From Candidatus Thorarchaeota archaeon (GTDB taxonomy: Archaea; Asgardarchaeota; Thorarchaeia; Thorarchaeales; Thorarchaeaceae): a DNA stretch of 41,334 bases. Below, piece by piece: positions 16,884 to 41,043 of this stretch. The stretch's first letter is position 1. The number at the start of each line of letters is the position of its first letter. Under the pieces are notes generated by a model. The model was not told where the DNA came from. It did not search any database and worked only from the letters and a program-made list of their open reading frames with translations. The position numbers and the translations under genes were made by a program. The DNA lies in the NCBI GenBank assembly GCA_013388835.1, contig JACAEL010000067.1, positions 1 through 41,334 of the forward strand, read 5' to 3'.

Positions 16884-17597
16884 GTGTCAAGCGAAGTGCT
16901 AAGCAGGGTCGCAGAGCTGTTAGAGGAGGCACTCAACTCAGACGAGAGTATGACCAACATCGTGCTCTGCACAAAGGAAGGTGTGGTGGTCACAGCAGTT
17001 TCCAGAGATGAGGAGCTTGATCCCCGTGTGCTGGCCACCGTCAATGCAGCTATTGCGTCTGCAAGTAGTAACACATTCACCCAGGCGCGAGGTGAGCGCG
17101 CGTCGTGCCTTATCCACTCGACCGAGAACAAGACAATCTTCACTGTCTTGCAACCCAACTGCTACATGGTGTTCGTGACCAAGGGGACGTACAACCGTAC
17201 GGATCTTGAGGCACGAGTAGCCCCCATGCAGTCGACTGCCTCGAGGATTGCATTGTTCATGTCATCAAGCACCAGCTTTGGAGCCGAAACGCTCGTGGAG
17301 AACATAGCTCGGCGAATACCGGGAATCTCGAAGGTGCTGCTTCTGACCCATGAGGGACTCCCACTGGGGTCACTCGGTTTTGAGAGTGAGATTGAGATGG
17401 CCGCTCTTGCAAGCTCCATTTTCGGGAATGGAGTCACTCTTTCGGAGCTGACCGAGCATATTCTCATCTTCTCACAGGAGGTGGCCATGCTAATAGCGCG
17501 AGTGGACGAGAAGAGGTTGCTGCTGGCAATCTGCGTGGGGAGAGACAGAATCAATGCAGCCCACCGTATCCTTGATATGATTGAGGCTGGAGCATAA
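16884..17597 (+). CDS. tandem Roadblock/LC7 domain protein
   Basis: A 237-residue protein with two Roadblock-like halves. The first (about 4-120) has VLSRVAELLEEAL, IVLCTKEGVVVTAV and CYMVFVTKG; the second (about 137-235) has ENIARRIPGISKVLLLTHEGLPLGS, split here into helix and strand, then EIEMAALASSIF and LLLAICVGRDRINAAHRIL. The fused arrangement mimics the dimer that single Roadblock proteins make and resembles archaeal scaffold proteins for small GTPases. Start GTG 16884 follows GGAGGT; a TATA-like ACATATAAG (about 16827-16835) is about 50 bases upstream. It is divergent from the Bmp gene and convergent with the regulator gene. Confidence 0.82.
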   Translation: MSSEVLSRVAELLEEALNSDESMTNIVLCTKEGVVVTAVSRDEELDPRVLATVNAAIASASSNTFTQARGERASCLIHSTENKTIFTVLQPNCYMVFVTKGTYNRTDLEARVAPMQSTASRIALFMSSSTSFGAETLVENIARRIPGISKVLLLTHEGLPLGSLGFESEIEMAALASSIFGNGVTLSELTEHILIFSQEVAMLIARVDEKRLLLAICVGRDRINAAHRILDMIEAGA

Positions 17598-25326: not shown

Positions 25327-26439
25327 TTGACAGAAGCTGCCGAAACGCCAGTAGAAGACATTGAGATGTTGCGGGAGAAGCTGCGCGAGCTCAAGGCAAA
25401 GGCAAGACAGGACCTTGAGGAGCTCAGAAGAGACCGCGACAAGATGCGAGAGTACAAGACGCTGCGTGACGAGCACAACAAGGAAGTGCGTGCTCTGATC
25501 GAGTCGGTGAAGGCCGAACGTGAAGAACGTGACAGAATAAACAAGGAGATTGCAGAGGCCAAAGAGAGGCGTGCTGCAATACACGCCCAGCTCAAGAGCG
25601 TCTACGATGAGATTCGTGAGCTGCGAAGCGTCATTGTCGGGAGTCCATCCACCGATCAGCGAAGGATGATGCGTCGGGTCGAGGAGCTCGAGTGGCGACA
25701 GCAGACCGAGCTGTTGACTCGGGAAGATGAAGCATCTATTGTGGAGGAGATTGCCAAGATCGAGGCCACGCTCGTGAAGATTGGGCAGGAGAAGGAGAAA
25801 CAGGACAAGATTCACGAGCTGCGACGACTGGCTCGACGACTGAAGGACGAGGCCACGGAGGTTCATCAGAAGGTCTTGGAGCTGTCAGAGCAGTCCCAGA
25901 CGCACCACCAAGAAGTGGTTCGCATACGTCCTCAGCTGGAGCAGTACAAGAAGGCCGCTGACACTGCACACCAGAACTTCGTTGAGTGGCTCAAGCGTGT
26001 GAAGGAGGGAGAGGAGAAGCTCAAAGAAGCCCGGACACAGATCGAGGAGATTCAGGGCAAGATTCGGAAATACGCGTCCGAGAAACAGACCGCTTCGCGG
26101 ACCGAGAAGCGGACGCAGCAGAAGGTGGCCGAGCAGGAACGCCTTGACGCCGCCGTAGAGAAGCTGCAGTCCGGGAAACGCCTCACTTTTGACGAGTTCA
26201 TACTGGCCCAGCGAGTCGTTTCTGATGACTCTAGACGAAGGCCCTTCCGACATGAGGCGGCCGATGAGGACGACGGTGATACGAGCGAGTCGGTTGAGGA
26301 CGCAGCGTCGACTGAGGAAGCAGAGACAGTTGAGGAAGCAATGACCCCCTCGGATGAGCCCTCCGATGATGAGGGCGAGCTGGACGCTGAACTCGATACT
26401 GAGCCTCTTCAAGACGGACAAGACAGTACTGACAGCTGA
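25327..26439 (+). CDS. long coiled-coil protein with acidic tail (COG1340-like)
   Basis: Residues about 10-290 are a nearly continuous coiled coil rich in Glu, Arg, Lys and Leu heptads (for example EMLREKLRELKAKARQDLEE, split across heptads), broken near residues 100-115 (GSPSTDQRRM) where the helix may fold back. A FDEFILAQR segment near 290 is followed by a very acidic Ser/Asp/Glu tail (about 305-370). Archaea encode similar proteins of unknown function, grouped as COG1340. A structural or chromosome/cell-surface linker role is possible. Start TTG 25327 has only a weak GGGGTAA motif upstream. It ends before a hairpin terminator-like sequence, so it is probably monocistronic. Confidence 0.7.
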   Translation: MTEAAETPVEDIEMLREKLRELKAKARQDLEELRRDRDKMREYKTLRDEHNKEVRALIESVKAEREERDRINKEIAEAKERRAAIHAQLKSVYDEIRELRSVIVGSPSTDQRRMMRRVEELEWRQQTELLTREDEASIVEEIAKIEATLVKIGQEKEKQDKIHELRRLARRLKDEATEVHQKVLELSEQSQTHHQEVVRIRPQLEQYKKAADTAHQNFVEWLKRVKEGEEKLKEARTQIEEIQGKIRKYASEKQTASRTEKRTQQKVAEQERLDAAVEKLQSGKRLTFDEFILAQRVVSDDSRRRPFRHEAADEDDGDTSESVEDAASTEEAETVEEAMTPSDEPSDDEGELDAELDTEPLQDGQDSTDS

Positions 26440-26462
26440 TTGCCCACAGTACTGCCCGCGAG

Positions 26463-26489
26463 GTTAGAGGGACGACTGGTTCCTCTAAC
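26463..26489 (+). terminator. terminator-like hairpin after the coiled-coil gene
   Basis: GTTAGAGG (26463-26470) and CCTCTAAC (26482-26489) form an 8-bp stem, extendable by a G-T and an A-T pair to ten, followed by TCTCTC. It is 24 bases beyond the stop codon and 12 bases before the transporter start, so it may either end the first transcript or act in the leader of the second. Confidence 0.5.
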
Positions 26490-26500
26490 TCTCTCACGGC

Positions 26501-27778
26501 ATGGTGAGTGAATTGAGCAGCACAACTCAGAGACCAGTCAGCAGGTGGCCTGCAGGAACCGTCTTCTACTTGCTAGCTCTCGGTTCGGGTGTCATGCGGA
26601 CTCTCAGTATTGCCACTGACTATGTTGCCTTAGGTGAGTTTGATCCACTGGTCTTCGGCTTTGTAGCACAGTGGGTGTCCTTCCTCGTCACTCTCACGAC
26701 TGTCCTGTTTCTATCATTGAAGAAGCGTCACGGGACCGCTCGCAGGCCTCTTGGCTACTCGCTTGATCCTGACTTTGGAAGACTCAGCCTCCTTCCGAGG
26801 AAGCCTATGCAGTACGTGCTGCTTGCTGGATTCTTTGCTGGAGTGTCCACCGCATGTTACTTTTTCTTGATTGGATTCACTGATGCCTCAGCAGTGCTTC
26901 CATATGGGCAGCTTGTCATCATCTACCTCCTCATCGGTGATCTCCTAGCCGAGAAGGACACACCCACGATAATTGAAATACAGTGCATCATATCCATTCT
27001 CTTTGGTGCTCTACTCGTTGGCATGACTCCCGAAGGCTTTGAATCGCCCTACTTCCTTGTTACCCTTCTAATTGTCCTAGGACCGCTCAATCTGTCCTCT
27101 GCATTGATAACCTACTATCAGAAGAAGGCCAAGCGATATGAGGTTGCACCAGGGCTTAAAGTCGATGCTCTGAACATGAGAGTCTGGTCGCTGTTCGTCC
27201 TGAACTCGGTCTTCACCCTGCTAATCCTGCCCGTTGTAACTCCGGAGCAGTGGGCAACGGTGCCGCTTGTCACCCCAACGATGATTGTCTGGATGGCGAT
27301 TGGTTCACTGGCAACCTTCTTGTCAATAGTGTTGTACATCCGTGCGCTGGCCAGAGGATCGATGGCAATTGTCAACTCACTCACATCCATATCCGTGGTA
27401 TTGGGAATCCCTGTAAGCGTGATTGGGAGCCTGACACTCCCCGGCTCCTTTGGGCCAATCACTAGCGACCCCACTACATGGATACTTCGCACGTTTGGGG
27501 TCATACTCGTAGTCGTTGGTATTGTGGCACTTGAAGGGTCTGATGTCCGTTCGATAATCCTGATTCGGACGAAATCCAACGCCGGGGACCTCCTGCCCGC
27601 TCTCTTTAGCGTCAAGGGCGTGGAGAGCGCATCGGCGCTGGCAGGGCGAGAAGACTACCTGCTTAGCGTAAGAAGCCGGAGTCTAGCCAAGACGAGAAAA
27701 CTTGTCCTGAAGAAGATTCAGCAAATCGAGGGTGTCAACACTATCCAGACACTGGTGGTTCTCAAGGAGTATAGGTGA
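26501..27778 (+). CDS. EamA/DMT-like ten-helix transporter fused to a Lrp/AsnC RAM domain
   Basis: Residues about 20-345 are ten hydrophobic helices in the five-plus-five pattern of the drug/metabolite (EamA) transporter superfamily, with the typical internal LPYGQLVIIYLLIGD and ARGSMAIVNSLTSISVVLG helices (the latter like the second EamA repeat). The last 75 residues (about 350-425) are soluble and match the RAM/Lrp-AsnC ligand-binding fold: SIILIRTKSNAGDLLPAL, then GREDYLLSVRSRSLAKTRK, and GVNTIQTLVVLKEYR, the end of many Lrp proteins. RAM domains bind amino acids and dimerise, so the tail could sense a transported amino acid. The stop overlaps the start region of a second RAM gene. A fusion like this is unusual in my knowledge. 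Confidence 0.78.
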   Translation: MVSELSSTTQRPVSRWPAGTVFYLLALGSGVMRTLSIATDYVALGEFDPLVFGFVAQWVSFLVTLTTVLFLSLKKRHGTARRPLGYSLDPDFGRLSLLPRKPMQYVLLAGFFAGVSTACYFFLIGFTDASAVLPYGQLVIIYLLIGDLLAEKDTPTIIEIQCIISILFGALLVGMTPEGFESPYFLVTLLIVLGPLNLSSALITYYQKKAKRYEVAPGLKVDALNMRVWSLFVLNSVFTLLILPVVTPEQWATVPLVTPTMIVWMAIGSLATFLSIVLYIRALARGSMAIVNSLTSISVVLGIPVSVIGSLTLPGSFGPITSDPTTWILRTFGVILVVVGIVALEGSDVRSIILIRTKSNAGDLLPALFSVKGVESASALAGREDYLLSVRSRSLAKTRKLVLKKIQQIEGVNTIQTLVVLKEYR

Positions 27779-27783
27779 TAGTA

Positions 27784-28029
27784 ATGGCAGTGACTGCATA
27801 CATGTTGATGTCAATAGAGATTGGAAGGACTGAAGCTGTTGTCGAGAGGCTGCGAGCAATCGAGCCTATCACTAAAATAGCTGTGACTACAGGGGTTTAT
27901 GACATCATCCTGCGGCTGGAGGTACCCAGTCTTGACGACCTCTATGACATCACGCTTAAGATACATAGCATTCCGGGGATTAAGGAGACCTCGACAGCCG
28001 TGGTAGAAAAGATGTTCATGTCAGTATGA
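27784..28029 (+). CDS. stand-alone Lrp/AsnC ligand-binding (RAM) domain protein
   Basis: An 81-residue protein consisting only of a RAM domain: AYMLMSIEIGRTEAVVERL, TTGVYDIILRLEVPSLDDL and IPGIKETSTAVVEKMF follow the beta-alpha-beta-beta-alpha-beta order, and the same block order is seen in the tail of the preceding transporter. No DNA-binding domain is present. ATG 27784 is preferred over GTG 27775, because GGTGAT, an exact anti-Shine-Dalgarno match, lies four bases upstream; that signal sits across the stop codon of the transporter, so translation is coupled. The pair probably assembles into mixed RAM dimers or octamers, regulating transport or sensing amino acids. Stand-alone RAM (SraA-like) proteins are known in archaea. 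Confidence 0.85.
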   Translation: MAVTAYMLMSIEIGRTEAVVERLRAIEPITKIAVTTGVYDIILRLEVPSLDDLYDITLKIHSIPGIKETSTAVVEKMFMSV

Positions 28030-32892: not shown

Positions 32893-35800
32893 TTGAAGTC
32901 TCTAAGAGGACTACTATTGGTTTTCATGCTCCTCTCTGTCAGCGTACCAGTCGTTGGCAGTCTTGGAGTTCTGTTTCCTGTGACATCTGAACCACATGAA
33001 GCCATGCACGTTATCGTCTCGGAAGAACCGGGAACGCGACTGGACCCTGATGAACACACTCCGCATGTGCCAATCTTCATCAATGGCACAGCAGACTTTG
33101 TGTCCCAGGGATGGCCGGGCGCGGGCACCGAGATGTCACCTTATCGCATTCGGGGACTGAACATAACGACAGTCGCTGATGTGGTGAACATCAGGATCAT
33201 CAATACAGATGCCTACTTCCTCATTGAGGACTGCTTCGTGCGCCAAGTCTTCTCCAGCCATGCCGTATCCTTTGTGAACGCGTCGCATGGTCTGATAGAG
33301 TATGCAACTATAGAAGCAGCGGACCTGGCGGTGTCCTTCTACAATGCCAGCAATGCCCGCATCAGCCGCTCTGTAATAACATCCACTTCCGATTACTGCC
33401 TGCAAGTCCAGTACTCCAACGACTTCTTGATGCAGCACTCTGTACTCAATTCCAAGTACCGGCTCATCGGTTTCTATCAGAATGTGGGTGCCCAGTTGAT
33501 TAACAACACGTTACATGGTCACCCCGATTGGAATGGCATCTACATGCAGTACTGCAACTACACACTGCTTTCCAACTTGGTTCTCTATGACACATTCAGA
33601 CCAGTCTACGCATACTACTGTCCCCATACTGATGTGCTCGATCTTGTGACCGATGCAGATGGAGGCCTGTTCTTCGCGTATTGCAATGACGTTGCCATCA
33701 GAGACTCTACAATCATCTCCCACATGGAACAAGCAGTGTATCTGTTTTTCAGTAACGACAGTGTTGTTCAGCACTGCGTACCGCGGTCAGATACTGGAGC
33801 AGCCATTAGCGCTTTGCACTGCACAGATGTGGAGCTGAGTGGCAATACAGTGCCCTCAGACTCCTATGGAGGCATCTTCGCCGACTCATGTCCGAGGCTA
33901 CTCGTCTCCCAGAACACTGTCCGTTGTAATTCGACGCAAGGAATCAGCCTGAGTACCTGTGAGAACTCCACGGTGATCTACAACAGCGTCTTTGACGGAG
34001 ACTCGACTGGCATCTACCTGGTCTCCAGTCCCAGAGCTGAGGTCAGCCACAACACCGTTGCAAACGTCAATGACGATGGTATATTCCTCGAGTCTTGCTT
34101 CCTGTCTGTGGTGTCATTCAATACTCTGACTGAATTTGCAAGTGAGGCCATCTATGCCACGAACTCCGGCAATCTCACTATATCCTCAAACACAATCGAG
34201 GGTGCAGACAGCGACGCAGTCCACATCGATGGCTGCGACAACTCATCGATATCTGACAACGTTGTTACAGGAGATGGCGGCTTCTATGTCGAATCCTGTG
34301 ACTCGGTTCGCATTAGCAACAACCTCCTCACAGAGGTCAGCGACTATGCCATAAACACAGAGCTCAGCGCAGATGCGCTGGTGGAGTTCAATACAATCAC
34401 CGACTGCCTGAACGGAATTCGTCTGCATCAGTGTGATTCATGCGACATCAGAAACAACGATGTGTCGTCTGCGCAGACTGGTGTGTACGTTGGCGGATGC
34501 ACAGGCGCCACACTATTCCATAACACCGTTGATGATTGCGTTGAGGGGATTCTGTTGAAGATGAGCCCGAACGCGAGTCTGGAAGGCAATGCTGTCACAG
34601 ACTGCGGCTATGGGATTGAGGTTGATGAATGCACTGGGATGGTCCTGCTTAGCAACAGCATGACCAGCTGTGGTTTCTGGTGGGTTGAGGGTTATGCCAT
34701 TGAGTACTACAATCACACACTGAGCGGCAACACCGTCAATTCGAAGCCAGTGTACTACGGACTGAGTCAGACTGGTGGCGATGTCGACGGCAACTCGTAC
34801 GGCCAAGTGATTCTCGTCGACTGTAATGGTACACGCGTGTCCGGCGGGACATTCACTGCGGCCGGTCCGTTTATGATCTACTTCAGCGTGCTAATCAATG
34901 CCAGTCATGTCACGACGGCATCCAGTCACTACTGCGGAGTCGTCGCCTACCTGTCTCAAAACCTCACGCTGAGCGATGTGCACCTAGACGGTGAGCATGT
35001 CCCGGACAATTGTGGCATCCTTCTACTGGGGTCTCCGTATTTCCACATCTCGAACTCAGAGATCTTGAGATACAACTCAGGGCTCAGGCTTATCAGTTCT
35101 GGTTATGGGACCGTGTCCCAAACCACTTTCTCGCAGAATCATTTCTCGGTAGTTGAGGTCACACCGGGCCACAATGTTTCAGTGCTGTTCTGCGAATTCT
35201 ACCATGCCGTCGATACTCACATTGTAGCCAACGCGAATGGTGACTACTGGAATGTGACTGGATGTGTGTTCCACAACGCAACGGCAGCAATCACGTGGTA
35301 TGGCAATCGGCCCTATTTCTCCTCGAACACATTCACCCACTGTGGATATGGGGTGTATGTGACGGGCAGTGCATCCGATAACGGCATGATTACTCGCAGT
35401 CAGTTCGAGAGTTGTGACACTGCGATATACATCTTGTCTGGAGACTACTGGACAATCACAAACAACACGATCATGTGGAGCAACAGTTACGGCGTGTGGC
35501 TTTCAGGGTCAACCGGTACAGTCGTCTACTATAACACAATTGCCCTGAGTGCGTCTGACAACGGCTACGACTCTGGCACCAAGTATTGGGACGATGGTAT
35601 GTCGCAGGGCAACGTCTGGGATGACTATACTCCTCCGCCTCCGTACATTGTGAGTGGTAGTGGGGCATCGCAGGACAGGTATCCCAGTCAGTTCGTGGTC
35701 ACCCTACCCATCATCAACCACCCTCTGGACAGGTCCTACGCTGAGTTCTCAGAAGGCCACTCTATTGGATGGAGAGCGTTCGACGACTACCTGAAGGACT

Positions 35801-36633
35801 GGTGGGTCACTATCGATGGTCTGCCGTGGGCCAATGGCATCTGGACCTTTGACCCCGCTCACTACATCACCGTCAATGTGGACGGTCTTCCGTACGGCAT
35901 GCACACTGCCACTATCACCGTACGTGACATCAACCTCAACACGGTCTCTGATACAGTCATCATCCATGTCTACGATGATACTCCTCCGACCATAGATGGT
36001 CCTCCCGATACGGAGGCCTTCGAGACCGGCACGGGTCAGACCCTGATGTTCGAAGTGTACGATCAGAACCCACAGAACTACGTCGCCACCCTCGATGGCA
36101 ACAGCTTTGCCAGCGGTACGTGGAGCAGTCCCCTACTGAGCATGAACATAGACTCCATACCTCTGGGTGTGCACGAGGTCCTGCTGACCATCTACGACGT
36201 CGATGGCAACTCGGCATTCGACGCGGTTCAGGTGCTTGTGTTGAGTGATACCACTCCTCCCACGATTGACAACCCCAACAATATGACCATCATCTTCGGC
36301 ACGGTGGGGAACTTTGTGGTCTGGACTCCCGCGGATGCTCATCCCTCTTTCTTCGAAGTGCGCACCGGGTCCATGGTCGTGGAATCGGGCTCCTGGGGCG
36401 GCGGAAAGGTCCTACTCGCACTTGACGACATTCCTGTGGGTAACCACAACTTCACACTGACTGTGTGGGACAAGGCTGGAAACAGTGCAAGCGACAACGT
36501 CTTGGTGACAGTCTTGCCGCCGGGTTACCAGCCTCCACCTCCGTTCGATCTCGGTCTCCTACTGATAGTGGCGGGAATCACGGCCGGTGTCGTTGTTGTG
36601 GTGGCTGTTGTCTACAAGCTCAAGAAGAAATAG
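32893..36633 (+). CDS. large secreted right-handed beta-helix surface protein, C-terminal membrane anchor
   Basis: A 1246-residue cell-surface protein. A signal peptide (about 1-23, SLRGLLLVFMLLSVSVPVVG) is followed by INGTADFVSQGWPGAGT (63-79), an N-terminal cap block shared with the next gene, then about 850 residues of parallel beta-helix (PbH1/NosD-like) turns with repeating NxI/NTV and GIxL/YxxxC patterns. About 930-1210 are three Ig-like repeats, each opening with TPPTID and containing GTW or GSW; a Pro-rich PPPPFD linker leads to a single helix (about 1218-1241) and KLKKK. Many NxS/T sequons suggest glycosylation. No catalytic residues of a polysaccharide lyase are evident, so adhesion or S-layer-like roles are possible. 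Start TTG 32893 follows GGAGG. Confidence 0.88.
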   Translation: MKSLRGLLLVFMLLSVSVPVVGSLGVLFPVTSEPHEAMHVIVSEEPGTRLDPDEHTPHVPIFINGTADFVSQGWPGAGTEMSPYRIRGLNITTVADVVNIRIINTDAYFLIEDCFVRQVFSSHAVSFVNASHGLIEYATIEAADLAVSFYNASNARISRSVITSTSDYCLQVQYSNDFLMQHSVLNSKYRLIGFYQNVGAQLINNTLHGHPDWNGIYMQYCNYTLLSNLVLYDTFRPVYAYYCPHTDVLDLVTDADGGLFFAYCNDVAIRDSTIISHMEQAVYLFFSNDSVVQHCVPRSDTGAAISALHCTDVELSGNTVPSDSYGGIFADSCPRLLVSQNTVRCNSTQGISLSTCENSTVIYNSVFDGDSTGIYLVSSPRAEVSHNTVANVNDDGIFLESCFLSVVSFNTLTEFASEAIYATNSGNLTISSNTIEGADSDAVHIDGCDNSSISDNVVTGDGGFYVESCDSVRISNNLLTEVSDYAINTELSADALVEFNTITDCLNGIRLHQCDSCDIRNNDVSSAQTGVYVGGCTGATLFHNTVDDCVEGILLKMSPNASLEGNAVTDCGYGIEVDECTGMVLLSNSMTSCGFWWVEGYAIEYYNHTLSGNTVNSKPVYYGLSQTGGDVDGNSYGQVILVDCNGTRVSGGTFTAAGPFMIYFSVLINASHVTTASSHYCGVVAYLSQNLTLSDVHLDGEHVPDNCGILLLGSPYFHISNSEILRYNSGLRLISSGYGTVSQTTFSQNHFSVVEVTPGHNVSVLFCEFYHAVDTHIVANANGDYWNVTGCVFHNATAAITWYGNRPYFSSNTFTHCGYGVYVTGSASDNGMITRSQFESCDTAIYILSGDYWTITNNTIMWSNSYGVWLSGSTGTVVYYNTIALSASDNGYDSGTKYWDDGMSQGNVWDDYTPPPPYIVSGSGASQDRYPSQFVVTLPIINHPLDRSYAEFSEGHSIGWRAFDDYLKDWWVTIDGLPWANGIWTFDPAHYITVNVDGLPYGMHTATITVRDINLNTVSDTVIIHVYDDTPPTIDGPPDTEAFETGTGQTLMFEVYDQNPQNYVATLDGNSFASGTWSSPLLSMNIDSIPLGVHEVLLTIYDVDGNSAFDAVQVLVLSDTTPPTIDNPNNMTIIFGTVGNFVVWTPADAHPSFFEVRTGSMVVESGSWGGGKVLLALDDIPVGNHNFTLTVWDKAGNSASDNVLVTVLPPGYQPPPPFDLGLLLIVAGITAGVVVVVAVVYKLKKK

Positions 36634-37257: not shown

Positions 37258-40200
37258 TTGAGAAGAACTCATGGACTGCTTGTTATAATCATGCTTCTGG
37301 CTGTCGTTGTCACGTATAGCAATGGCCCAACGTCACTCACATGCGCTTGTGATGATGCTAACACTGGGCGGCACTTGCTGTCGGACGACTATGGAACGCG
37401 GCTTGGTCCCACAGAACTGGAAGACCATGTGCCTATCTTCGTCAATGGCACGGCCGACTTCGCATCTCAAGGATGGCCCGGTGCAGGCAGTGCGATGTTT
37501 CCTTACGTCATATCAGCGCTGAGAATAAACCCTGTTATCCCCGTTGCTGCTGTCCGGATAATCAACACAGACGCTCACTTTGTCATACGAGACTGCCTTC
37601 TCAACCAGACTTACATGCTTGATGCGATTGTGCTCGAGAACGTGTCTCACGGGTCTGTCGAGTATAACACCGTCCGCGCAGGCAACAGAGGGATCTATGT
37701 CGAAAATGGAAACAACACTGTCATCTCTCATTGTGATGTGATGGCATCCAACTATATAGCAGTGGATGTGCATGAATCGAATGACTGCAGGCTTGAGAGC
37801 AACTCAGTTGTGTCCGTTGGCCACAGGGCAGTGTACGCAGTGGAATCACACAGACTAGTGTCAACCCACAACACCCTGTCTGCCGCCGCGGGGTCATTTG
37901 CATTACACTTCTACGGCTGCAATACGACATCCTCCGCGGATGACGTGGTACTGTCCGGGCTCGGAGGTATCGCTGGCGAGTACTGCCATGGAATGCATAT
38001 AGAGAGAATGGCAGCGACCAGCGTGGGTTACGGGGCCTATGTGTCTTACTGCACCGACGTTTCCGTGGATGGGAGTGTCCTGCACGCTACGGAGTATGAG
38101 GGAGTCCACTTGTCATATTCTCCAGAAACGAGCATCGTCGGCTGCACCATCAGCTCAGAGGGAGCAGACGGCATCTATGTGAGTCATTCGAACGGCACTC
38201 TGATCCATGGCAGCACGATTGTTTCGGCTGGTGCCTCGGGAGTTTACTTGACCGCTTCTCACCACTCCGAGCTGGTCGGTAATACGATAGAGAACTGTGA
38301 CAGCAATGGAATAGAAGCTTACACCTCCGTGGGTCTTGTCATTCTTAACAACGTGATTGACGGTGTCGGTGGCGATGGGATCTACCTTGATCACTGCGAA
38401 GATGCCCATCTCGAGGACAATGCAATCCACGACGCCAGGGCAGGTGTCGATACGAATGGATGCGACCGGTTGAGTGTCTTCGACCACACCATTAGTCATG
38501 TGGACGCAGCTGTGGTGGCAGTCGGCTCCACGAATGTGACCATCCGAAGTGGTCTCTACTCATATGCGATTGCGGCGGTGTACCTTCAGGACTGTGTGAA
38601 CGCGCAAGTCATGGACAACCTGATTGAGGAGGTGAATTACGGAGTCGTTGGGGACTCGACCCCTAACGCGACAGTGTCGCACAATGAGATTAGTTCGGTG
38701 TACGAGCAGGCCATCGCCATGGTTGGCCAGACGGACTCTGAGATCCGCTCGAACGTAATCAAGGAGGCCGAGTTGGGAATATACATTGGGAGCGACCAGG
38801 GAATTGACGTGGTCTACAACAGGCTGGAGGAGATCAATGGGCGCGCTATTGTTGTCGAGGCGCTTGAGAACGGGACTCTCAGTCATAACGTCATTGACGG
38901 ACATAACAGCATTGACGGACGCGGCACCATTGGTATTGCGCTGACCGCCGTTGGTCTGAGTGTGGTCAACAACACGATTGTGGATTTCGAAGTGGGCATC
39001 AGCTTAGATGGCTCGTTGCTTCTTACCTTTACAGACAACCACATGACTCGTTGTGGTTTCTACTGGTCCCCAGGTGACACCTTCGACTTCTACAACCACT
39101 CGATGTTCAACAACTGGGTCAACTCGCTTCCAGTCTACTTCTCTGTGGGACAGACTGGCGTTGACTTGGATGGCAGTCTCTACGGCCAGGTCATCCTCCT
39201 CGACAACAACGGCACTCACATCACTGGTGGAGTGTTTGACACCTGCACATCTGCAGTGATGGTCTTCCATAGTCTTCTGGTTCACGTTGCCGACATTGTC
39301 GTGCCGTCATGTGTGCATGGTGTGGTCATATCCTCCTCTGAGAATGTCTCCCTTCAGAACATCTCTGTAGAGGGTCTGGCAATGGCTGTGAACGATGGTG
39401 TGACACTCAGCCAATCCGATTACTTCGTGATCAGCGCTTCTGATTTCATGCACTTGTCTGATGCAGTCCGGATTGACCGGTCAGACTATGGACTTGTCAG
39501 TGACTGCGACTTCGACTCGAACGGCTATGGTATTCTTGCCTACGGCCAGTCTAGCTCATATCTCAGGGTGGAGAGTTCCCGATTCAGCAATGCCGAGTTC
39601 ACGCACATCTCTGGGGAGGTTGCTCCCCTCAACAACTACTGGAATGTTACCGACTGCGAATTCTTCAACGCAAGCAAGGGCATCAGCATATTGGGTGCTT
39701 ACCTCCATCTGTATCTCAACAGTTTCGTGCACATGAGTCAATATGGCATAGAGGTCACGAATGCCGCCTCCGACTACGGGTACGTTGCGTCCAACACCTT
39801 CGAGAGCTGTGGCACGGCTGTGTACATTTTTAGCGGCGACTACTGGAACGTCACCTCAAACGACATACTCTGGAGCACCAACTACGGTGTGTGGCTCTCA
39901 GGCTCTACTGGCACCTATGTATACTACAATACAATCGCGCTTAGCGGTATCCAAAACGGGTATGACGCGAACACAAAGTACTGGGACGACGGAGTTGCGA
40001 TTGGCAACACATGGTCTGACTATGTCCCACCACCTCCCTACGTGGTGTCCGGCGCAGGTGGTTCAACTGACAGATACCCGATCCAGTGGGTAATTACGGA
40101 ACCGATTGTGAATCATCCACTTGACGTATCCTATGCTGAGGGCTCCACTGACAACTATCTGACTTGGCTGGCCTCTGACGACTACCTTCGCGACTGGAGC

Positions 40201-41043
40201 GTCACTATCGACGGCGCATTCTGGGCTGAAGGTATCTGGGACCTCAAGCAGCGCTTTGTCATCAGCGTTGACGTAGATGGTCTGCAGTACGGAACGCACA
40301 CTGCAGTGATCACAATCTGGGACGTTGACCAGCACAGTGTAACTGACACGGTACTCATCAAGGTCTATGATGGCACCCCTCCTGAGATTAGCGGGCCGCC
40401 AGACACAACGGTTTTTGAGACCGGTGTGGGTCAGACACTAGAGTGGGTTGTCAGTGACCTTCATCCTGCCACGTACATGGTCACAGTGGATGATTTGACT
40501 GTGGCCTCCGGTTCGTGGTCCAGTGGTGTGCTGTCCATAAACGTTGACACTGTTGAATTGGGACTGCATGACGTTCTCATGACTGTGTACGACATAGATG
40601 GCAACGCGGCTCAGGACTATGTTCTGCTGCTGGTCGACTCGGACACCACCGCTCCAACTATCGACCACCCTGATGATGTAGTCATGATCAGTGGCACAAT
40701 TGGGAACAAGGTGGTGTGGAACCCGAGCGATGATAACCCATCTCGCTTCAGTGTCATCTCCAATGATACCGCTGTTCTCTCTGGCCCGTGGCATGGAGGA
40801 AGAATCATGCTGAACCTTGACAGCCTGCCTGTCGGTAATCACACCTTCACTCTGACTGTCACTGATGGCGGTGCCAATTCTGTCAGCGATACCGTGACAG
40901 TGTCTGTCAGGTCTGCGGGCCCTGAGACAGTGCCTCCCCCATTCGACGTGGGTCTCCTTCTCATTATCGCTGGAATAGGGGCAGGTGCAGTTGTCGTTGT
41001 GGTGATTGTGTATACGCTCCGGAAACGGACCGCGGGGACATAG
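37258..41043 (+). CDS. large secreted right-handed beta-helix surface protein, paralog of the preceding gene
   Basis: A 1261-residue paralog of the first beta-helix protein. It has a signal peptide (about 4-22), FVNGTADFASQGWPGAG (about 61-77) as N-terminal cap, a long PbH1/NosD-like beta-helix, NGYDANTKYWDDGV followed by VPPPPYVVSGAGGSTDRYP linking to Ig-like repeats (TPPEISGPPD, TAPTIDHPDD), and a C-terminal helix (FDVGLLLIIAGIGAG...) with a KRTAGT tail. The same linker is in the first protein. The GTADF and KYWDDG blocks are highly similar between the two, while the central turns differ, as expected for duplicated surface proteins diverging in their binding face. Start TTG 37258 follows GGAGG; promoter motif shared. 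Confidence 0.88.
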   Translation: MRRTHGLLVIIMLLAVVVTYSNGPTSLTCACDDANTGRHLLSDDYGTRLGPTELEDHVPIFVNGTADFASQGWPGAGSAMFPYVISALRINPVIPVAAVRIINTDAHFVIRDCLLNQTYMLDAIVLENVSHGSVEYNTVRAGNRGIYVENGNNTVISHCDVMASNYIAVDVHESNDCRLESNSVVSVGHRAVYAVESHRLVSTHNTLSAAAGSFALHFYGCNTTSSADDVVLSGLGGIAGEYCHGMHIERMAATSVGYGAYVSYCTDVSVDGSVLHATEYEGVHLSYSPETSIVGCTISSEGADGIYVSHSNGTLIHGSTIVSAGASGVYLTASHHSELVGNTIENCDSNGIEAYTSVGLVILNNVIDGVGGDGIYLDHCEDAHLEDNAIHDARAGVDTNGCDRLSVFDHTISHVDAAVVAVGSTNVTIRSGLYSYAIAAVYLQDCVNAQVMDNLIEEVNYGVVGDSTPNATVSHNEISSVYEQAIAMVGQTDSEIRSNVIKEAELGIYIGSDQGIDVVYNRLEEINGRAIVVEALENGTLSHNVIDGHNSIDGRGTIGIALTAVGLSVVNNTIVDFEVGISLDGSLLLTFTDNHMTRCGFYWSPGDTFDFYNHSMFNNWVNSLPVYFSVGQTGVDLDGSLYGQVILLDNNGTHITGGVFDTCTSAVMVFHSLLVHVADIVVPSCVHGVVISSSENVSLQNISVEGLAMAVNDGVTLSQSDYFVISASDFMHLSDAVRIDRSDYGLVSDCDFDSNGYGILAYGQSSSYLRVESSRFSNAEFTHISGEVAPLNNYWNVTDCEFFNASKGISILGAYLHLYLNSFVHMSQYGIEVTNAASDYGYVASNTFESCGTAVYIFSGDYWNVTSNDILWSTNYGVWLSGSTGTYVYYNTIALSGIQNGYDANTKYWDDGVAIGNTWSDYVPPPPYVVSGAGGSTDRYPIQWVITEPIVNHPLDVSYAEGSTDNYLTWLASDDYLRDWSVTIDGAFWAEGIWDLKQRFVISVDVDGLQYGTHTAVITIWDVDQHSVTDTVLIKVYDGTPPEISGPPDTTVFETGVGQTLEWVVSDLHPATYMVTVDDLTVASGSWSSGVLSINVDTVELGLHDVLMTVYDIDGNAAQDYVLLLVDSDTTAPTIDHPDDVVMISGTIGNKVVWNPSDDNPSRFSVISNDTAVLSGPWHGGRIMLNLDSLPVGNHTFTLTVTDGGANSVSDTVTVSVRSAGPETVPPPFDVGLLLIIAGIGAGAVVVVVIVYTLRKRTAGT

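Follow-up and report, generated by a model that had tools for sequence, protein, structure and literature searches.

We identified, in a Candidatus Thorarchaeota archaeon, a pair of adjacent genes that we interpret, with a probability of about one half, as a single functional unit in which a putative membrane transporter would be gated post-translationally through RAM–RAM assembly with a cytosolic ligand. The RAM domain (the Lrp/AsnC ligand-binding domain, PF01037, with a Pfam cut-off of 25 bits) is mainly known from Lrp/AsnC transcription factors, in which it senses amino acids. In the present pair it is fused to a membrane carrier and also encoded on its own next door. The pair lies on the forward strand of the window, that is, the whole stretch of 41,334 nucleotides that was analysed, and comprises the following features:

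26501..27778, + strand: putative RAM-tailed transporter of DMT/EamA fold, 425 aa (open frame, Pfam, AF2, Foldseek, loop charges)
26552..27538, + strand: ten predicted transmembrane helices spanning residues 18-346, the fourth and ninth broken (AF2/DSSP; hydropathy scan)
27545..27757, + strand: predicted cytoplasmic RAM tail, residues 349-419, beta-alpha-beta-beta-alpha-beta (Pfam, AF2, Foldseek)
27775..27786, + strand: gene junction, a 4-nt overlap (GTG start) or a 5-nt gap (ATG start) (sequence, start-codon scan)
27775..28029, + strand: stand-alone RAM protein, 84 aa from the GTG or 81 aa from the ATG at 27784 (Pfam, AF2, Foldseek)

The product of 26501-27778 is, on its predicted structure, a ten-helix putative transporter of the DMT/EamA fold with a RAM tail. 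The AF2 model, for which the window protein and its GTDB relatives served as input (pLDDT 78, pTM 0.77), contains ten membrane helices and a C-terminal RAM domain; DSSP places the helices at residues 18-44, 49-71, 100-126, 129-151 (broken), 157-174, 185-211, 223-242, 259-285, 288-312 (broken) and 324-346, and a second, independent method, a hydropathy scan, likewise yields 10 segments. Foldseek against the PDB assigns the model to the DMT fold via 5y78 (E 2.4e-6), 5oge, 9i20, 7paf and 5i20, these matches being the triose-phosphate translocator, Vrg4, SLC35B1, LicB and YddG; no DMT structures were found for the transporter from sequence alone. The original prediction of an EamA-like transporter is thus upheld by model and fold comparison, the EamA profile itself giving the window protein a weak 23 bits against a cut-off of 28.2; two relatives exceed this cut-off (L071, 43.2 bits; L135, 39.8 bits).

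A RAM domain had also been predicted at the C-terminus, and a profile search, in which its absence from residues 350-425 would have counted against the idea, found PF01037 at residues 363-423 (E 2.6e-9, 37.3 bits). AF2 builds a RAM fold over residues 349-419, and Foldseek matches the tail to the RAM proteins 2djw, 1ri7 and others; with a score above the curated cut-off and a tail that models as RAM, a chance domain match is ruled out. In the model only about 2 residues separate helix 10 from the first RAM strand. Net charge is negative in the odd loops and positive in five of the six cytoplasmic stretches, all but the two residues that precede the RAM tail; because these charges fit the positive-inside rule, the transporter is predicted to be N-in/C-in, with its RAM tail in the cytoplasm.

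The second gene encodes, as foreseen, an isolated RAM domain. In the 84-aa product PF01037 covers residues 14-77 (E 1.8e-13, 50.6 bits), and the protein has nothing besides this domain; the AF2 model has a pLDDT of 89.6, and its best short-chain Foldseek match is Pyrococcus FFRP-DM1 (2e1a; TM-score 0.90 by target, 1.3 Å, 38% identity). The beta-alpha-beta-beta-alpha-beta fold is present in the models of both RAM domains, tail and free. A Pfam search for an HTH in the two proteins was empty at E up to 1, in agreement with the predicted lack of a DNA-binding domain, and neither carries the N-terminal HTH that defines an Lrp/AsnC transcription regulator. Whether the genes overlap, as originally proposed, depends on the start chosen: the claim stands with GTG 27775, which gives a 4-nt overlap, and falls with the first in-frame ATG, which lies 5 nt past the transporter stop. 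Since such gaps are short or negative and a Shine-Dalgarno-like GGAG lies upstream of the free RAM start, translational coupling of the two genes is plausible from the sequence.

Several other features of the window were noted. Just upstream of the transporter start, at 26424-26489, lie two perfect inverted repeats, CAGTACTG...CAGTACTG and GTTAGAGG...CCTCTAAC, which are not conserved in the relatives. Two large NosD-like right-handed beta-helix proteins of 1246 and 1261 aa are encoded at 32893-36633 and 37258-41043, and a Roadblock/LC7-domain protein, expected for an Asgard genome, at 16884-17597.

RAM-tailed transporters are widespread in the window's phylum. Among 228 Asgard genomes, relatives of the window transporter (clade A) occur in 85, a few of them as fragments at contig ends; a survey for PF01037 uncovered strongly divergent RAM-tailed transporters in genomes without clade A, and a search with these sequences added 48 further genomes (clade B). 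The two clades never share a genome and jointly account for 133 of the 228, which rules out a one-genome oddity. Each is supported at 100/100 in the tree, and both stand apart from ordinary Asgard EamA carriers. The unconstrained tree does not unite A with B, but the AU test does not reject their union in one clade (p 0.13); one or two fusion origins are therefore possible. A first scan of GTDB contigs with the window protein alone as query returned no relatives. A second, which used an alignment of Asgard relatives and depends on one peptide pattern, returned 31 in Heimdall, Odin, Baldr, Njord and Asgard-group MAGs, two of them titled otherwise (one 'archaeon', one Thermoproteota). Two further proteins with a C-terminal RAM domain, of 473 and 487 aa (L233:2558-3979 and L234:3289-4752, families f13 and f14), have few membrane helices, the hydropathy scan predicting less than seven in each; they represent another RAM fusion and were set aside.

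One argument for a functional unit is the constancy of the pair. With every locus counted once and taken as informative where the contig allows a look, 103 of 107 have a same-strand free RAM gene adjoining the transporter, so that the anticipated conservation of the pair in other Asgard genomes is strongly borne out. Clade A contributes 66 of 66 (leaving aside L025, L063 and L066, where the contig ends at the gene) and clade B 37 of 41; among the 31 GTDB loci, drawn largely from the same genomes, 29 have a RAM gene next to the transporter, a contig edge truncating the remaining two. The gap from stop to first ATG between paired genes has a median of 14-21 nt. Given this recurrence, and just 9 PF01037 matches in the 3.0 Mb of the window's own genome, chance pairing is excluded. 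No other neighbour gene recurs widely beside the pair across families, and none names a substrate; the pair itself is hence the conserved unit. All four exceptions (L181, L183, L185 and L188) belong to family f21 of clade B, come from large genomes and have transporter tails that look degenerate. In three f21 loci viewed with longer flanks, a RAM gene lies 2-4 kb downstream in two and none was seen in the third. The partner is thus not always encoded adjacently.

Some loci carry additional RAM genes. At the Loki-type loci L144/L132, L145 and L146 (family f19), two free RAM genes follow the transporter in tandem; L051, L053 and L062 (f5, f8) have, beside the upstream partner, a third, divergent RAM gene downstream, which forms its own clade with a support of 100.

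The pair has also persisted through changes in gene order. In clade A, family f1, to which the window belongs, has the free RAM gene downstream, and the other families have it upstream. Families f5, f8 and f18 include loci with one free RAM on each side of the transporter. The RAM tree, built on 81 columns and weakly resolved, places the clade-A free RAMs in one weakly supported group (SH-aLRT 79), the tails in another (78) and the clade-B free RAMs in a third (97); within it, the window's downstream free RAM groups with the upstream RAMs of family f12 (87). The simplest reading of these sequence relationships is that the free RAM gene changed sides while the pair stayed together. That the order changed yet the pair persisted argues for a working relation beyond shared descent.

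This working relation could run in the opposite direction, with the tail acting as a membrane anchor for the free RAM or for Lrp-type factors, such that transport status controls expression and not the reverse. There are precedents for such a transceptor or sequestration scheme: a stand-alone RAM is known to form hetero-octamers in vitro with an Lrp protein that binds DNA (PMC2995911), and the transporter AmtB sequesters its partner GlnK at the membrane (PMC10710835). Suitable factors are likewise at hand, as the window's genome encodes further RAM and Lrp-type proteins, including a 344-aa double-RAM protein with HTH matches. We nevertheless regard this scheme as unlikely, since the conserved partner clusters in the tree with other partners, apart from Lrp-type proteins, and the pair lacks a conserved regulator gene as neighbour. 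The 344-aa protein (L136:3334-4368, contig C61), with two PF01037 stretches and HTH matches, is apparently a tandem double Lrp-like regulator.

Residue conservation bears on whether the RAM domains sense a ligand at all. Residues G382 and D385 of the tail, in a G-x-x-D hairpin, align with G111 and D114 of E. coli Lrp, and neither position varies among the tails and free RAMs that were compared with Lrp; the hairpin Asp of the window's free RAM is D43. R393 of the tail is invariant in 25 clade-A proteins. In E. coli Lrp, D114 is tied to oligomerisation and to the low-affinity effector site (PMC10127797). The invariance of this effector-linked hairpin in both tails and free RAMs makes it improbable that the two merely set transporter stoichiometry by oligomerisation, without ligand sensing, although it is through RAM that Lrp-family proteins oligomerise (PMC2995911) and some clade-B tails, those of f21, are degenerate. 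The rates of change also speak against a mere scaffold, the free RAMs evolving slowest (mean distance 0.77) compared with the tails (0.98) and the TM domain (0.93). A mirror-tree distance-correlation test gave no specific tail-partner signal beyond shared ancestry: the partial r between tail and free RAM given the TM domain is 0.27, exceeded by that between free RAM and TM domain given the tail (0.53).

Least probable of the readings weighed here is that the free RAM works elsewhere, either as an amino-acid-responsive Lrp partner or as an enzyme, and shares no more than a transcript with a transporter from its pathway. In its favour, Lrp proteins can take stand-alone RAMs as partners, and hydrolytic activity has been reported for one such RAM (reference list of PMC2995911); yet this would leave unexplained the constant RAM-carrying transporter neighbour in two clades and both gene orders.

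We return to a transporter gated by RAM–RAM assembly as the preferred reading, for which we infer complex formation, ligand, substrate and gating by analogy. We envision that the cytoplasmic RAM tail of a DMT-family secondary transporter would assemble with its dedicated free RAM subunit, and that this assembly would be made, broken or reshaped under the membrane on binding a ligand from the cytosol, for which an amino acid or related metabolite is most likely. The change would be passed to the transporter, which would open or shut, so that export or import of amino acids would come under feedback control. Amino-acid exporters (EamA) are found among the DMT carriers, which makes amino acids the first candidates for both cargo and ligand. 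A ligand would be expected to alter the assembly because RAM domains dimerise and bind effectors at dimer-dimer interfaces, and the change could reach the membrane because the tail joins helix 10 with almost no linker. In RAM proteins the pockets lie between dimers and effectors shift the oligomer state, and DM1 responds to amino acids (PMC2995911). Counting against the mechanism, amino-acid binding is not expected, on prediction, for certain members of the group (PMC2995911). Extended to both clades, the proposal would be that RAM-gated transporters make up a pan-Asgard family: under the membrane, the fused tail and its dedicated free RAM subunit, at times two of them, would build a ring that responds to ligand and opens or closes a DMT carrier; we hold this broader version tentatively, at a little short of even odds.

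The combination of a RAM fusion and a free RAM is kept phylum-wide, in two divergent clades and in both gene orders. If the proposed gating is correct, RAM, a domain familiar chiefly from transcriptional regulators, would gain a post-translational function in transport across the membrane, and the archaea closest to eukaryotes would have a direct, fast nutrient switch on transport, parallel to PII-Amt control and unrelated to it. Such gating would also supply a concrete function for stand-alone RAM proteins, whose purpose has so far been unclear.

No description of a RAM-tailed transporter with a free RAM was found in the literature searched, most subscription journals aside, in keeping with the original statement that no described system with this arrangement was known. 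Uncharacterised DMT families appear in a survey of Asgard transporters, which does not mention AsnC/RAM fusions (PMC7997004). The DMT carriers YddG, TPT, Vrg4, LicB and SLC35 share the 10-helix DMT fold, but the matched PDB structures, of 255-350 residues, cover the membrane part only, and RAM structures match separately. The nearest RAM-EamA link in the literature searched is PA2577/PA2576 of Pseudomonas aeruginosa, in which a RAM-containing Lrp/AsnC regulator is functionally linked to an EamA transporter; there, however, the regulator carries an HTH domain, is not fused to the transporter and represses transcription at a divergent promoter (PMC8707732). The free RAM is DM1-like in fold (2e1a, 1.3 Å), and DM1, itself a stand-alone RAM, forms a hetero-octamer in vitro with the longer RAM protein FL11 (PMC2995911); FL11 is a DNA-binding regulator, whereas the longer partner here is a membrane transporter.

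Similar in working principle is GlnK-AmtB of bacteria and archaea, where a small cytoplasmic metabolite sensor is encoded beside a transporter and blocks it by direct binding (PMC3831643, PMC10710835); for the Asgard pair, such contact is suggested by the pairing. GlnK has a PII fold, AmtB is an Amt channel and not a DMT protein, and no sensor copy is fused to it, whereas the Asgard folds are RAM and DMT. Control by a cytoplasmic regulatory domain is familiar from the MetNI methionine importer. Its C-terminal domain controls amino-acid transport by feedback inhibition (PMC10710835); MetNI differs in being an ABC transporter that carries the regulatory domain on its ATPase and has no free partner copy. 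By analogy, the Asgard pair resembles GlnK-AmtB and MetNI in how it would work, while being a member of neither.
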